From contig JACRBJ010000065.1 in NCBI GenBank assembly GCA_016234555.1, positions 62,001-126,000 on the forward strand: DNA of 64,000 bases, written 5' to 3'. Shown here in pieces: positions 195 through 59,143 of the stretch (within the stretch, counting starts at the first letter, position 1; every line of letters starts with the position of its first letter). Origin of the DNA: Chloroflexota bacterium (GTDB lineage Bacteria; Chloroflexota; Anaerolineae; Anaerolineales; Villigracilaceae). The translations under genes and the position numbers were made by a program. The notes beneath the pieces were generated by a model. The model did not search any database. It was not told the origin of the DNA and saw nothing but the letters and a program-made list of their open reading frames with translations.

Positions 195-3100
195 TCATTC
201 CGTTTCGAGTAACATCAGAAAGGCATCCACCACCTGCGGATCGAAGTGTTTGCCGGATTCCGCAATGAGATACTCGCGTATTTGTTCGGTCGTCCATCCT
301 TTACGGTATGGACGATCCGAGCGCAGAGCATCCCATACATCCACAACGGCAAAGATGCGCGCCGCTAGTGGAATCTCCTCACCTTTTAATCCGCGCGGAT
401 AACCGCTGCCGTCCCATTTTTCGTGGTGACAGTAGGGAATATCCAGCGCGGGACGCAGGTATGCAATAGGCAACAGCATGTTGAAGGCATAGGTGGGATG
501 CTCACGCATAACCGCCCATTCGAGGCGGTCAAGCCCATCAGTCTTGTATAGGATGTGGTCGGGCACTCCCAGCTTGCCGATGTCATGCAGGAGCGCACCG
601 CGCCGCATATGGGCAATCTCCTGCGGATTGACTCCCATTGCCTTTGCCAGTTTTATCGTCCAATCGGTGACGCGCAAGGTGTGCCCCTCAGTCTCCTTAT
701 CACGCAGGTCCATGGCGCGGGACCAGCCCTCGATGGTGGCATCGTAGGCGACGATCAGTTCGAGGTTCGATCTCTGCATTCCCTCGAAGAGTTGGGCATT
801 GTCAATGGCGATCGCGGCCTGACCTCCAAGAGTTTCCAGGTAGTTCATCCATTCCATATCGGGGTTGAGAGGGGACCGGTTGAAGATTTCCAGCACGCCC
901 TTCAACAGTCCCTTGGCAATCAGTGGAACGCATAGGTATTCGACAAACCCTTCGTCTGCCAGAAGTTTCTGGCGCAGGAATTTACCGCCTGTGAGTTCAA
1001 GGGACGACGCATGGATAGTTTTTCGTTCCAGTCCCGCCTGTCCTGGAAGGTCCTGCCCAAGAAGCATCCGCGATTGGCGAATTACCGTCGAGCGGAATCC
1101 CTTTCCAGTCGAGTATTCAAGGGTTTGTGCTGACGGACTCAAGAGTAGGACGCAAGCCGCATCCACCCCGAGTTGGGAAATCGTTTGAGTCAGCAGGACG
1201 TCGAGCGAAAGGCGCATATCGAGGCTGGAGCTGATGGCGCGGTCAATCTCATTCAGGGCGCGCATCCGCCGTAATTGAATTTGTACCTGTTCCTCGACCT
1301 TCCTGTGTTCGGTAATGTCCCGCACAAGGACAGATATTGCGCGACGCGAGTTCCCCGGAACAAGGATTGGGTTGGCACGAGCCATAAACCAGCGCTGCCC
1401 GCCAATAACCTCCAGCGGATATTCGATGTGTTGGGGGGAATTCTCCGCCAGCGAACGTTTGATGGCTTTCGCAAACTGGCTGCCATGTTCCTCACCCATC
1501 ACGTCCAAAACCCGCCTGCCCATCATTTGGGCTTTTGGCATTACCAGCAGGCTTTCATCGGCTGTCCAAATATCGAGGTAGTTTCCATCCTCATCGAACT
1601 CAAAGACAATATCATCAAGCGAAGTCACCAGTGCCTTCATTTGCTGCTCGCTCCGGCGGATGACCTCCTCCGCCCGCTTGCGTTCCGTAATGTCAAGGGC
1701 TGTAAATGTCACACCCTTCGAGAGGTCTGCAACGTCTATTGGGGTGGAAGCCAGCAGGACGTCGATGATCGAGCCGTCCTTTTTCCGCCAGCGGGTTTCC
1801 ACCTCTCCGCTGCCTCTTTGGGCAATCTGTCGATACTTTTCCCGCCCAACGAAATCAAAATCCTCATGTGTTGGGTACAAAATCCTGGCGCTTTGACCAA
1901 TCAGTTCCTCCTTTGTGTATCCCGTCATTTCGCAAATGCGGGCATTGACTTCCGCCAATACCCTGTCCTTGACCACGCCAATTCCAGTTGGAGCAACGCG
2001 GAATATGCTCCACATCTTCTCCTCGCTCTGGTGCAACGCCTCCTCCGTCTGTTTTCGTCCGCTGGCATCCTGCTGGGTGGCGACACGGTACGACAGATTC
2101 CCATTTTCGTCCCGCACGCTGACCAGGTCCATTTGGACCGGGTAGACGCTCCCATCCTTGCGAATCATTCGCGCTTCATACTGCGCATGACCTGTACAAT
2201 CCGCCTCGGCAATACACTGTTTGACATATTCATGGATGGACGGGTCGTACATTTCCAAAATGGACATGGATGAAACTTCTTCAATGGTACGCCCCTGCAA
2301 TCGGGCAAAGGCTGGATTGCAAGTCAGGATGCGACCTGTGGGCAACCCGATGGCGATGCCATACGCGCAATTCTCGAAGGCGTCTGCCCACTGGAGTTTG
2401 ACCTTTTCGGTTTCCATTTTGTCATGCGCAAAGGAAATAGCCAGTCCCATCTTTTCGAGCAGGTGAATTTCCTCCCCAGCCTGAAAAAAGCCTACTTCCC
2501 TGGATAGCAGATTCAGAACGCCGACGGTCCTTCCCTGCACGCGGAAGGGGATGGATGCCAGGGAATGGAGATCATATTTTTTCAGTTCGCGCAGGTCCCT
2601 TGTCCTCTCGTCAGTTTGCACATCTTCACTGGTAGCAGGTTTGGAGGTGCGAAACGCCTCGACAATAACCCCGTTTTGACTGGGTCTCCCATTTGAATCG
2701 ACGACCAGCGGAGCCCAGTTCTTCACATCGAGGCCATTTGCTGCTACGGGTTTCAACTCTTGAGAGTCTTCATCCAACAGTCCAACCCAGGCGGCGGCAA
2801 TTTCGCCATGCTGCACAACCACATCACAGACGGACTGGTATAACTCCGACGGTTCCTTCACCTGCATAAGAATCTGATTGACCTGACTGAGGGTGACATA
2901 CAGGCGTTTCATTTGAAGGGTTTGCTTTTTCACCTGTGCCCATTCAGTGATGTCCTGCACATAACCGATCATGGAAGTCGGTTGCCCAGCCTCGTCGCGA
3001 ATCAATTTTCCGTGGGCGCGGACTGTGCGCCCCACGCCATTGGGCAATACGATACGATAGGTCAGGGATGCGACGGAACTGATTCCTCCCAATATGCTGC

Positions 3101-4130
3101 GATTGAATTCGAGCACCGACGACACGTCATCAGGGTGGACACGCTCGGCTACGACGCGGTTCATGTCCCCGTCGAAACATTCGCGCTCCACCCCAAAGAG
3201 GCGGAACATCTGCTCAGACCAGGTCGCTTTTTTTGTACGCAGGTCCAGCCGCCAACTGCCCATCTGCGCGACTTCTTCCGCCATGCTCAGGGTGGCTTCA
3301 TTCTCCCGCAGCGCCTGCTCCGCCTGACGGCGCTGGGTAATGTCGCGGTTACTCGCCCGCCTTCCCATCGGGCGGCCATCCGGACCATGGACACGCTGGC
3401 AGGCATGGCTGATCCAGCGAACATCGCCACTGGTGGCGACGATACGAAAATCCAGTGATAACGGTTCGGCTTTCTCGACCTCCTCCTGCATGTGACGTTT
3501 ATACAAGGGACGGTCATTGGGATGGACGATCTTTTCGAGCAGGGAGGGATCCTGTTCAAATTTTCCAACCTCGTAACCGGTGATGCGCTCACACGACGGC
3601 GAGGTGTATAGGATTCGGCGGCGGCTGTCCAGCCAGTATTCCCAGTCATAGGTGAAGTTTGCCACCGTGCGGAAATATTCCATGCTTTCGCGCAGTTTGG
3701 TCTCGACCTGCTTTCGTTCGGTGATGACGTTGAATATCGCCGCGAAACATTCCTTCTCCGGGCTAAAGACGGAGACGGAAAACCAGGTTTGCAGGGCTTC
3801 CACGAACATTTCAAATTTTTCGGGTTGACCGGTCTGGGAGACGCGCGAACAGGTTTCGAGTAATCCCGGAAGGGTTTTGCGGAAGTCGGGCATGACCTCG
3901 GTGGCGTGTTTTCCCTCGACCCCGCTCAAACCGGTCAATTTTTCGAATGAGTTATTTACTGCAAGGAAGACCCAGTCCTGCGCCTGTCCATTTTCGTGAA
4001 CAATCCGGCAGTGGGCATATCCCTCCGCCATGGCATCGAAGAACCCGCGATCCCGTTCCGCATTCTCCTGCCTGCTGCTTTTCACACCCCTCGAAACGCC
4101 GACCTTCTTTTTTTCAGGTTTTTTGATCAT
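195..4130 (-). CDS. Multi-PAS/GAF sensor protein with C-terminal HD-GYP domain (putative c-di-GMP phosphodiesterase)
   Basis: 1311-aa ORF; repeated PAS/PAC-like blocks (DITERK...), GAF-like blocks, C-terminal HDIGK and HHEKWDGSGYP motifs. Confidence 0.93.
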   Translation of the reverse strand: MIKKPEKKKVGVSRGVKSSRQENAERDRGFFDAMAEGYAHCRIVHENGQAQDWVFLAVNNSFEKLTGLSGVEGKHATEVMPDFRKTLPGLLETCSRVSQTGQPEKFEMFVEALQTWFSVSVFSPEKECFAAIFNVITERKQVETKLRESMEYFRTVANFTYDWEYWLDSRRRILYTSPSCERITGYEVGKFEQDPSLLEKIVHPNDRPLYKRHMQEEVEKAEPLSLDFRIVATSGDVRWISHACQRVHGPDGRPMGRRASNRDITQRRQAEQALRENEATLSMAEEVAQMGSWRLDLRTKKATWSEQMFRLFGVERECFDGDMNRVVAERVHPDDVSSVLEFNRSILGGISSVASLTYRIVLPNGVGRTVRAHGKLIRDEAGQPTSMIGYVQDITEWAQVKKQTLQMKRLYVTLSQVNQILMQVKEPSELYQSVCDVVVQHGEIAAAWVGLLDEDSQELKPVAANGLDVKNWAPLVVDSNGRPSQNGVIVEAFRTSKPATSEDVQTDERTRDLRELKKYDLHSLASIPFRVQGRTVGVLNLLSREVGFFQAGEEIHLLEKMGLAISFAHDKMETEKVKLQWADAFENCAYGIAIGLPTGRILTCNPAFARLQGRTIEEVSSMSILEMYDPSIHEYVKQCIAEADCTGHAQYEARMIRKDGSVYPVQMDLVSVRDENGNLSYRVATQQDASGRKQTEEALHQSEEKMWSIFRVAPTGIGVVKDRVLAEVNARICEMTGYTKEELIGQSARILYPTHEDFDFVGREKYRQIAQRGSGEVETRWRKKDGSIIDVLLASTPIDVADLSKGVTFTALDITERKRAEEVIRRSEQQMKALVTSLDDIVFEFDEDGNYLDIWTADESLLVMPKAQMMGRRVLDVMGEEHGSQFAKAIKRSLAENSPQHIEYPLEVIGGQRWFMARANPILVPGNSRRAISVLVRDITEHRKVEEQVQIQLRRMRALNEIDRAISSSLDMRLSLDVLLTQTISQLGVDAACVLLLSPSAQTLEYSTGKGFRSTVIRQSRMLLGQDLPGQAGLERKTIHASSLELTGGKFLRQKLLADEGFVEYLCVPLIAKGLLKGVLEIFNRSPLNPDMEWMNYLETLGGQAAIAIDNAQLFEGMQRSNLELIVAYDATIEGWSRAMDLRDKETEGHTLRVTDWTIKLAKAMGVNPQEIAHMRRGALLHDIGKLGVPDHILYKTDGLDRLEWAVMREHPTYAFNMLLPIAYLRPALDIPYCHHEKWDGSGYPRGLKGEEIPLAARIFAVVDVWDALRSDRPYRKGWTTEQIREYLIAESGKHFDPQVVDAFLMLLETE

Positions 4131-6629: not shown

Positions 6630-6725
6630 GGTGAACGCGACACCTATCCAAAAGTAGGGGCGTCTTCCCAATCTTGCAAAAGAAAAACTGAACTTACAGG
6701 CAGGATGGCAAGGGGAAAAGCATAT

Positions 6726-6767
6726 TATAATGTCCAGGCTTTCTGATAAGTTTCTCCTTATCAGAAA
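6726..6767 (+). promoter_or_regulatory. -10 box plus perfect 11-bp inverted repeat operator/5' hairpin
   Basis: TATAAT 6726-6731, then TTTCTGATAAG(6740-6750)-tttctc-CTTATCAGAAA(6757-6767), directly upstream of the lipoprotein at 6796. Confidence 0.8.
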
Positions 6768-6795
6768 GGAAAACCCAGGCATGCAAGGATAAAAA

Positions 6796-7260
6796 ATGCT
6801 CCACAAGATCAAGTTTGTTTTTCTCATGTATATGATCCTCTCGCTGGTGTTGACCGCCTGCGGAACCCCTGCCACCACGGAAAATCCGTCGGATGAATCT
6901 ACCCATGCGCAGCCGACCGAAGCCCCATCCACCCCTGCCCTTTTCAAAATCGTCAAACCCGACGGCTCCACCTTCAACGTGACCCTCGAAGCTGTCAAAG
7001 CCCTGCCACTCGCCACAGTGCAGGCGGAAGGCAAGATCGAGGAAGGTCCCTATTTGAAGGATGTGCTGGCGCTGGCGGGAATCACCGAATTCAGCGAGGT
7101 CTCGCTTTCGGGCAGTTCCAACTCCGCCACGCTGACGTTTGATCAGGTGGACGAAAACACCATCCTCGATTTCAACAATCACGGCACGATGAAACTCGCC
7201 TCCACCTATATCCCGAAGGCTGACTGGACGAAAGACGTGGCAGAGATTGTGGTGAAGTAA
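6796..7260 (+). CDS. Small lipoprotein with molybdopterin-dependent-oxidoreductase-like domain
   Basis: Lipobox LVLTAC; domain IVKPDGSTFNVTLEAVKALPLATVQAEG...YLKDVLALAGI resembles repeats in the 8712 and 14164 CDSs. Confidence 0.65.
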   Translation: MLHKIKFVFLMYMILSLVLTACGTPATTENPSDESTHAQPTEAPSTPALFKIVKPDGSTFNVTLEAVKALPLATVQAEGKIEEGPYLKDVLALAGITEFSEVSLSGSSNSATLTFDQVDENTILDFNNHGTMKLASTYIPKADWTKDVAEIVVK

Positions 7261-26728: not shown

Positions 26729-26935
26729 TTCTTATTCTCCTATTTTATTTTTGGTGGTTCAGCGGGCGGCGTCCCGCTGAATTGGATTGTTGATTGGATG
26801 ACGCGGCATCGAATGAGAATGTTCCCAAACCAACCGACAACCATGTAAAGTCACGGCACCCGAACTTACACGGTGTAAAATTGTGATGGATCAAAACATT
26901 TCACTTCTTAAGCCAAAACGGAAATGGATGAAGCC

Positions 26936-27847
26936 ATGAAAATACTAGTAGCAGAAGACGAACCAGGGTCACGGCGATTGGTCAAGATGGTCCTGTCTGC
27001 CGCGGGGTATGAAGTTGTGGAAGCCGTGGATGGGCAGGAAGCGTGGGAGATATTCCAGCGCGAACCGTTCCAATTGATCGTGACCGATTGGATGATGCCC
27101 CGCCTTGACGGCGCCGGTCTGATCCAAAACATCCGTGCCATTCAAAAGAGTTACACCTACATCATCATGCTGACTGCCATCGACGGGAAGCCCAAAGTGG
27201 TCATGGGGCTGGAAGCCGGCGCCGATGAATACCTTACCAAGCCTTTCAACAGGCAGGAACTCCTGGCGCGGATTGCAAGCGGGAAGCGAATCCTTCGGCT
27301 GGAGGAGCAGTTGACCGAGGCGCGTCAGCAGGTGGAAGTCCTTGCCATGCATGATGGGTTGACGGGCTTGCTGAACCGCCGTGCAATCGAAGAACATGCC
27401 GGGGCTGAATTCAAAATGGTCGCTCGCAAGGAACGCCCGATGAGCGTGATCATGCTCGACGTGGATCATTTCAAAAACGTCAACGACCAGTTTGGGCATG
27501 CTATCGGCGACCAGGTTCTGCGACAGGTTGCAAAGGTGCTGCAGGAAAACTCGCGCGGCTATGACCGCGTGGGGCGTTGGGGCGGCGAGGAATTCCTTCT
27601 TATCCTGCCTGACACTGAACTGAGGGACGCTGCCCTGGTTGCCGAACGTCTTCGAACCCAAACAGCGGGGACAAAAATACCGCTGGAAAGTGGAGAGTCT
27701 ATTTCCGTTCAAATCAGCCTGGGCGTTGCATGTACTGTCAATGGATTCCCGTCACTGGCAAAATTAATAGAGGCTGCTGACCAATCCCTTTATAAGGCAA
27801 AACAAACCGGCAGAAATCGCGTTTGCATCCACGAATCGGAGCCATAA
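26936..27847 (+). CDS. Response regulator with GGDEF domain (diguanylate cyclase)
   Basis: REC domain (ILVAEDEPGSRRLVKMVL...VTDWMMPRLDG...KPF) and GGEEF (GRWGGEEFLLILPDT). Confidence 0.94.
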   Translation: MKILVAEDEPGSRRLVKMVLSAAGYEVVEAVDGQEAWEIFQREPFQLIVTDWMMPRLDGAGLIQNIRAIQKSYTYIIMLTAIDGKPKVVMGLEAGADEYLTKPFNRQELLARIASGKRILRLEEQLTEARQQVEVLAMHDGLTGLLNRRAIEEHAGAEFKMVARKERPMSVIMLDVDHFKNVNDQFGHAIGDQVLRQVAKVLQENSRGYDRVGRWGGEEFLLILPDTELRDAALVAERLRTQTAGTKIPLESGESISVQISLGVACTVNGFPSLAKLIEAADQSLYKAKQTGRNRVCIHESEP

Positions 27848-57882: not shown

Positions 57883-57915
57883 ATACAGCGCAGGAATAAC
57901 CTGCGCTGTATTCAT
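57883..57915 (+). terminator. Hairpin terminator after PBP1A gene
   Basis: ATACAGCGCAGG-aataa-CCTGCGCTGTAT. Confidence 0.75.
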
Positions 57916-57957: not shown

Positions 57958-58605
57958 TTAGTACTTAACGAGTGGCGGGATTGAACTCTCGACAGGGGTC
58001 GCCAGGATGAACAACCTGCCCCAGCTTGAGTTGCCGTTGTTTTCGATGCAGGTTTGCAGCGTGAGATGATAGTCACCGCGATAGACCTTGTTGAACAGTT
58101 CCTCGGCGCTCAATGAGGTTTTTGCATCGAGGTCCTTGAAGTAGCTGTAAGGGCTCAGCGGGTCCAGCGCCTGGTATCGCTGTATGCTTTTGACGATAAA
58201 GCTTTCAGTGCGCCCGTCGCCATACACCAGGGTGATTCGATAACCATGTTTGATGTCGGTGAAAAACCTGCCCGCGTGTGTGTTGTGAGCGAGCAGCCCC
58301 ACGTTGCCCACTTCCGCGGCAATGCTGAATTGGGTGGCGACGGAGTCCGCCGAGGAAACATAGGCGGCGTGCCCGGTGGGCTGCTGCACAATGGAAAGCG
58401 CCATCACATTGGACACGTACACGCCGCGCAGGGTTGCGCTGCCGTCCTTCAGGCTTTCGACGAATTTATCCAAAGTGGGGATGGCGCCGGGAGCGTCCTT
58501 TGCGTAAACCTGGGTGGGAAGCGCAAGGACCCAGGCGAGGATCAAAACCAATGCGCCTGCGAATATTCGATTTTTCAGTTGTGTGGATTGAAATCCGGAT
58601 GTCAT
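57958..58605 (-). CDS. Sortase-like protein
   Basis: Signal peptide; NVGLLAHNTHAGRFFTDI (His), YHLTLQTCIENNGNSSWGRLFI (Cys...Arg); RBS AAGGAG 7 nt before ATG at 58605. Confidence 0.78.
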   Translation of the reverse strand: MTSGFQSTQLKNRIFAGALVLILAWVLALPTQVYAKDAPGAIPTLDKFVESLKDGSATLRGVYVSNVMALSIVQQPTGHAAYVSSADSVATQFSIAAEVGNVGLLAHNTHAGRFFTDIKHGYRITLVYGDGRTESFIVKSIQRYQALDPLSPYSYFKDLDAKTSLSAEELFNKVYRGDYHLTLQTCIENNGNSSWGRLFILATPVESSIPPLVKY

Positions 58606-58664
58606 GACAAACTCCTTCTTGAGCATCCAGATCCTTGGGCGCACGTGACGCTTGAAAACCTGAT

Positions 58665-58768
58665 GGCTCGTTTTCGGCAGCCGGGCGATCATTTCCGTGT
58701 AAACGGTTTTAGATCCGCGGCTTTGCGTCCCTGCCTTTCGGCAGGTTTGCTTTTATCGGTACGATTTT
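58665..58768 (-). ncRNA. c-di-GMP-I (GEMM) riboswitch, proximal copy
   Basis: Minus strand GCAAACCTGCCGAAAGGCAGGGACGCAAAGCCGCGGATCTAAAACCG...ATGATCGCCCGGCTGCCG; GGGACGCAAAGCC is diagnostic. Confidence 0.92.
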
Positions 58769-58827
58769 TTAGTAAGGTTCAAGAAAAACGGGTCGGTTGC
58801 CCGTACCCGCGAAAATAAACAATAATT

Positions 58828-58927
58828 GATCTTCGGCGGTCTGGCAGCCCTGGTTGGTTCACAACTTTAGACCCATGACTTTGCGTCCCTGCTTTTCAAC
58901 AGGTTTGCGATTTATCGGATGTTTTCA
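58828..58927 (-). ncRNA. c-di-GMP-I (GEMM) riboswitch, distal copy
   Basis: Minus strand CGCAAACCTGTTGAAAAGCAGGGACGCAAAGTCATGGGTCTAAAG...AGGGCTGCCAGACCGCCG. Confidence 0.9.
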
Positions 58928-59143
58928 TTTTGGAGTCTAGCACAGGTTGGCGATTACACGCTTTTCAATTCAGAAATGGCACCTTTTAGTCCTGTAAGGT
59001 AGGTCGGGCGTTTTTCCCCGCCCCACCCGTGATTAAGCTATTGGATGAAAATCGTGTGTCATATTCGAACCGTGTTTCGCCATTCAGACTTCCAACGATG
59101 ATGATATGATTAAGGCAAGAAGCTGAAAGTTGCAGGATAATTA

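Follow-up and report, generated by a model that had tools for sequence, protein, structure and literature searches.

The leader of a sortase gene of an uncultured Anaerolineales bacterium (Chloroflexota) contains two GEMM-I aptamers, each followed by an expression platform of a different kind. Its sequence indicates that it is probably a bi-mechanism tandem riboswitch acting on a single gene, at transcription and then at translation, such that ligand would lower sortase expression twice, at two successive steps (OFF-OFF). It is the terminator after aptamer 1, together with the start-site hairpin after aptamer 2, that gives the leader this appearance. The window analysed is a stretch of 64,000 nucleotides, and the features discussed below are located in it as follows.

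58832-58919, minus strand: GEMM-I aptamer 1 (RF01051, 72.1 bits, E 3.5e-12), with canonical A47 and C92
58838-58845, minus strand: GCCAGACC, 3' strand of aptamer 1 and presumed 5' strand of an antiterminator; in relatives it pairs with the 5' arm of the terminator
58781-58810, minus strand: intrinsic terminator between the aptamers, GCGGGTaCGGgcaaCCGACCCGT-TTTTCTT (hairpin 58810-58788, T tract 58787-58781)
58672-58760, minus strand: GEMM-I aptamer 2 (RF03167, 67.2 bits, E 1e-13), with canonical A47 and C92
58662-58669, minus strand: proposed 5' strand of an anti-sequester pairing, GAGCCAUC, the GA of which overlaps P1 of aptamer 2 (ACGA, 58671-58668)
58593-58632, minus strand: ribosome-site hairpin of 9 bp, AUCUGGAUG (58632-58624) with CAUCCGGAU (58601-58593)
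57958-58605, minus strand: sortase of 215 amino acids (NF053836, sortase_YLP) with an N-terminal hydrophobic segment and His107-Cys186-Arg197
57883-57911, minus strand: terminator-like hairpin 3' of the sortase gene
26924-27847: ORF encoding a GGDEF protein
195-4130: ORF encoding an HD-GYP protein, read as such from its motif only

Two GEMM-I aptamers

The first-pass annotation of this DNA had recognized two complete GEMM-I aptamers on the minus strand, and the covariance-model search with RF01051 that it proposed as a check found both to be significant: Rfam 15 yields two RNA matches above the gathering score in the window and no others, both of them GEMM-I, and against RF01051, with its gathering cut-off of 35 bits, aptamer 2 scores 77.2 bits, alongside the 72.1 bits of aptamer 1. 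The pocket bases A47 and C92 are present in both (GACGC-A, CCGA). The spacing of 60 nt given earlier becomes 71 nt with the Rfam boundaries. At base 20 (Vc2 numbering, read from the Rfam alignment), where G is canonical, aptamer 1 has C and aptamer 2 has A; because G20 is absent, both are filed here by their GEMM-I fold, with a putative ligand. The leader is a real, conserved regulatory element.

Assignment of aptamer 2 to the c-di-GMP-I-GGC variant (RF03167), a family of the same Rfam clan as RF01051, was considered and rejected: the variant needs G47 (consensus GACGCGAAGC), aptamer 2 has A at that base, and the "GGC" label is thus a cross-hit. Many Anaerolineae aptamers with A47 are reported as RF03167 ahead of RF01051, and G47 occurs in just one of 157 aptamers from the genus and order (the second aptamer of locus L095). 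Since RF03167 is preferred on A47 aptamers, automatic annotation will mislabel them.

Scanning the minus strand upstream for sigma-70 promoters yielded nothing usable. A block of the form TTGAAAAG...TGTGCTAnACT precedes aptamer 1 in many relatives and lies at about 58930-58975 in the window; its spacing is unsuited to a plain sigma-70 promoter.

The regulated gene and its setting

The sortase-like ORF with a ribosome-binding site described by the first-pass annotation is indeed a sortase gene: it starts at an ATG (58605-58603) with AAGGAG in front, and its product matches NCBIfam NF053836 at 217 bits (cut-off 125; E 1.8e-64) and has the residues His107, Cys186 and Arg197, which are invariant across 44 aligned relatives. 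The AlphaFold model (pLDDT 89.5) has the expected fold, all of the 50 PDB neighbours listed by the fold search being sortases; relatives came from the fold search alone, as a sequence search of the PDB returned none, and the Pfam Sortase match is sub-threshold (20.3 versus 26.6 bits). A scan of the window and the fetched loci detected no C-terminal sorting signals, and the profile library has no entry for the partner family NF053837. The terminator-like hairpin after the gene indicates that it is probably monocistronic. GGDEF and HD-GYP proteins are encoded in the window, as had been noted.

Conservation of the layout

The association of GEMM-I aptamers with this sortase extends well beyond the window. 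Among 80 homologous sortase loci in GTDB genomes, some of which end at contig borders, Rfam places at least two aptamers upstream in 51, one in 15 and none in 14, the last class including a locus (L233) with two aptamers downstream only. The genomes bear mostly the names of Anaerolineales or Chloroflexi metagenome-assembled genomes, and among them is Leptolinea tardivitalis, a cultured relative (L243) in which a second terminator-like hairpin takes the place of the start-site hairpin. Within the same genus and order, the sortase is present in 32 of 61 genomes, 23 of which belong to the same genus (the window's own included), where there is one weak match in addition. The GTDB and genus/order sets share many genomes and so are not independent of each other. 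Conserved riboswitch control of the sortase in Anaerolineae is well supported by these comparisons of sequence. The layout has occasional departures: one tandem has an extra GEMM-I aptamer far upstream (L193, 118-209), and the downstream pair of L233 (1828-2084) follows a sortase gene that has no upstream aptamers.

A terminator between the aptamers

The first-pass annotation remarked that no terminator was obvious after the second aptamer. None is found there, but an intrinsic terminator lies between the two aptamers (58810-58781), with a hairpin of -14.4 kcal/mol. A terminator hairpin occupies the same place in 18 of 18 same-genus tandems (-12.5 to -23.8 kcal/mol) and is present in the spacer of all 43 GTDB tandems examined; a strong hairpin with a T tract follows aptamer 2 in only four GTDB tandems, three of which form a Leptolinea group. 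The 3' strand of aptamer 1 and the 5' arm of the terminator covary (GCCAAGCC/GGCUUGGC, GCCAGGCC/GGCCUGGC, GCCAGACC/GGUCUGGC), and the duplex they are predicted to form averages -16.6 kcal/mol over the 43 GTDB tandems, compared with -9.4 kcal/mol when arms are shuffled; a tandem's own arm beats the shuffled mean in every one of the 43, and in 23 of them eight of eight bases are paired. From this geometry we infer that aptamer 1 controls an antiterminator that ligand binding can remove, making it an OFF switch: without ligand, the 3' strand would pair with the terminator 5' arm and RNA polymerase would continue; with ligand, the 3' strand would be held in the aptamer, the hairpin would form and transcription would stop.

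The opposite sign has precedents. Tandem c-di-GMP-I systems with a terminator that uses aptamer bases are known (PMC4759541), and a single aptamer elsewhere in this genome (contig C95, before an M6 peptidase gene) has an ON-type layout, so that the leader might be an ON switch with pseudo-cooperative activation like Bc3-5 of Bacillus thuringiensis. Such a reading is quite unlikely here: aptamer 1 ends before the terminator begins, and the pairing with which the terminator competes draws on an aptamer strand, which is the OFF layout; aptamer 2 has no terminator after it.

The window is a weak example of its own platform. Its antiterminator duplex is calculated at -8.8 kcal/mol versus about -18 to -21 kcal/mol in same-genus relatives, its terminator 5' arm having changed with the pairing of the terminator hairpin retained, and in models of the leader without ligand the terminated fold is favoured. 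There is accordingly a minor but appreciable chance that only the translational half works in this genome and that aptamer 1, with its C20 and weak antiterminator, is decaying or attenuates constitutively, just as one relative (L053) has lost aptamer 1 and retains aptamer 2 with the anti-sequester motifs. However, aptamer 1 still scores 72 bits and has canonical A47 and C92, C20 is also found in relatives with strong antiterminators (L189, L190), and the changed terminator has kept its own pairing; these points argue against such a loss. Leaders with aptamer 2 alone do occur naturally (L053, L061, L063), and thus two stages are not obligatory.

A hairpin over the ribosome site

Downstream of aptamer 2 the leader has the order ACGAGC, GGAUGCUC, Shine-Dalgarno, AUG and CAUCC, and the ribosome-site hairpin of the window encloses both GGAG (58615-58612) and AUG (58605-58603). 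The start-site hairpin CUGGAUG...CAUCCAG recurs, 5-9 pairs long, at 30 distinct loci; it shows compensatory changes (GGAUG/CAUCC to GGGUG/CACCC; UUUGGUG/CACCGAA) even though its 3' arm is coding, consisting of codons 2-5. It was found only in close relatives of the window, the more distant homologues having other leaders. Twenty-eight distinct leaders retain GAGC (rarely GAGU) and GCUC, at separations that range from about 67 down to 5 nt. GAGC shares bases with the ACGA strand of P1, so that three structures would compete: P1, the anti-sequester pairing and the start-site hairpin. In the proposed mechanism, aptamer 2 without ligand would allow the downstream GAGC-n-UCC to pair with GGAnGCUC, so that the ribosome site stays accessible; once ligand is bound, P1, the closing helix, would take part of the GAGC-n-UCC segment, and the CUGGAUG/CAUCCAG hairpin would then close over the ribosome site and start codon.

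When P1 is forced in folding models, the anti-sequester pairing is lost in 23 of 23 leaders, several of which (L046, L060, L063, L051) flip to the closed hairpin. Even without forced P1, the closed ribosome-site hairpin dominates most leaders at equilibrium, so that switching would have to be kinetic and the OFF sign rests on geometry rather than energies; the proposed switch did not emerge when the whole leader was folded at equilibrium and nothing else was imposed.

Two earlier suggestions can be revised in this light. Translational control, as the first-pass annotation supposed, fits the start-site hairpin after aptamer 2, but control would not be translational only, aptamer 1 having a terminator of its own. 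The idea that the tandem sharpens a dose response falls short for a leader in which the two expression platforms differ, and which is therefore not simply two copies serving one response.

Other GEMM-I loci in the genome and in relatives

In the same genome, up to three abutting GEMM-I aptamers with a spacing of about 80-88 nt are found at locus L008 (about 6680-6943; G000:C49:60680-60943, minus strand). Arrays of this type have no terminator between aptamers and mostly have A/A/G or A/A/C at base 20. They precede ruvB in 16 relatives (L094, L097, L100, L101, L109, L123, L124, L128, L132, L135, L138 and L142-L146), and for two of the proteins NCBIfam confirms that they are RuvB; in the genome of the window, MBOAT and AlgX-like genes intervene between the array and ruvB. 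This would be c-di-GMP control of ruvB, perhaps with several aptamers on one platform, an arrangement that seems to be unreported.

Single G20 aptamers are found at two loci. One, with an OFF-type terminator, precedes genes for a small secreted protein, TasA-like in appearance with no family match, and signal peptidase I (L009, 3791-5890; G000:C58, minus strand); 18 related loci also have G20. The other precedes the gene of an immune-inhibitor-A-like M6 metallopeptidase, and its own 3' strand is the terminator 5' arm, hence an ON-type layout (L010, 2337-5486; G000:C95, minus strand).

Pocket base 20 and the ligand

The first-pass annotation proposed direct control of cell-surface protein anchoring or processing by c-di-GMP. 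Riboswitch control of the sortase has good support from its conservation in Anaerolineae, but with C and A instead of G at base 20 it would be unsafe to treat the two pockets as ordinary ones for c-di-GMP. Base 20 contacts the ligand, and the G20A change lets Vc2 bind cGAMP (PMC6274999, PMC7288161); mutations of G20 and C92 in Vc2 weaken c-di-GMP binding (PMC9049102), and a natural variant with the same pocket change gained affinity for cGAMP, perhaps with a slight loss for c-di-GMP (PMC9481103). A20, the base of GEMM-Ib, is present in aptamer 2 and absent from aptamer 1. A search of open-licence papers found no description of a C20 pocket.

Base 20 varies in a manner that depends on the locus. 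Of 157 aptamers from genus and order, 100 have G there, 41 have A and 16 have C; the base is G in 18 of 18 TasA-like/signal-peptidase loci, mostly A/A/G or A/A/C in the ruvB arrays, and commonly C in the 12-row sortase clade to which the window belongs. Together with the cGAMP binding of G20A Vc2 and of the natural variant, this locus specificity speaks for two pockets with different ligands, in which A20 aptamer 2 would sense cGAMP (as in Geobacter GEMM-Ib), C20 aptamer 1 another cyclic dinucleotide, and the leader would be a two-signal gate. We regard this as unlikely on two counts. No recognizable cGAMP synthase was found: the selectivity residue is Asp, as in c-di-GMP synthases, in all 16 distinct readable GGDEF domains (a reading that left out one full and several weak or partial hits), none of these has the Ser of the Hypr type (signature from PMC6456294), and the SMODS cyclase profile (PF18144, DncV-like cGAMP synthase) has no match in the genome. 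Moreover, the sortase tree implies at least 12 changes of base 20 in aptamer 1 and at least eight in the last aptamer, with the gene and the layout constant. The lack of a recognizable cGAMP synthase favours weakened or tuned c-di-GMP sensing, and repeated changes at constant gene and layout fit tuning better than a new signal. It is likewise unlikely that one cyclic dinucleotide stops transcription and another blocks translation of this sortase, in which case the C20 pocket would represent an undescribed GEMM-I ligand class in Anaerolineae. Our best guess from the sequences is that c-di-GMP is the most likely ligand, bound with an affinity that the non-canonical base 20 would alter.

Comparison with known systems

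Tandem c-di-GMP-I arrays are common (347 doublets and 12 triplets; PMC9481103) and are taken to be pseudo-cooperative (PMC9481103, PMC12452182). With the arrays of RF01051, such as Bc3-5 (PMC4759541), the leader has in common the aptamer sequence and fold, A47, C92 and a tandem position before a surface-related gene; it differs in its two unlike platforms, the C and A at base 20, the sortase target and its occurrence in Anaerolineae. Bi-mechanism tandems have been described for SAM classes in a review that does not list c-di-GMP-I among them and whose survey of tandems was not comprehensive (PMC9481103). Like SAM-II/SAM-V and some SAM-II doublets, the leader has one unit before a terminator and a second at the ribosome site; unlike them, it belongs to a second-messenger family and uses one aptamer class twice. 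In the open-licence papers searched, we found neither a c-di-GMP-I tandem with mixed platforms nor a sortase gene regulated by a c-di-GMP tandem, which in each case is weak evidence of absence.

The sortase itself matches NF053836 well above the cut-off, with its catalytic residues present. Sortase-dependent surface display is subject to c-di-GMP riboswitches in C. difficile as well, but there the substrates and the ZmpI protease are controlled (PMC6200980), whereas here it is the sortase gene. For the Bc1 riboswitch of B. thuringiensis, also of class c-di-GMP-I, effects on transcription as well as translation have been proposed, but it has one aptamer, two terminators and incoherent effects (PMC11218506). 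GEMM-Ib, the 3',3'-cGAMP riboswitch, shares A20 with aptamer 2; aptamer 1 differs from it in having C20, and the genome in having no recognized cGAMP synthase. The natural pocket series of G, A and C at base 20, with gene and layout constant, offers a test of affinity versus ligand identity. If the proposed mechanism is correct, a second messenger would directly control a sortase gene in a phylum in which there has been little work on surface anchoring or c-di-GMP signalling, and a bi-mechanism tandem design known until now from SAM riboswitches would extend to c-di-GMP signalling.
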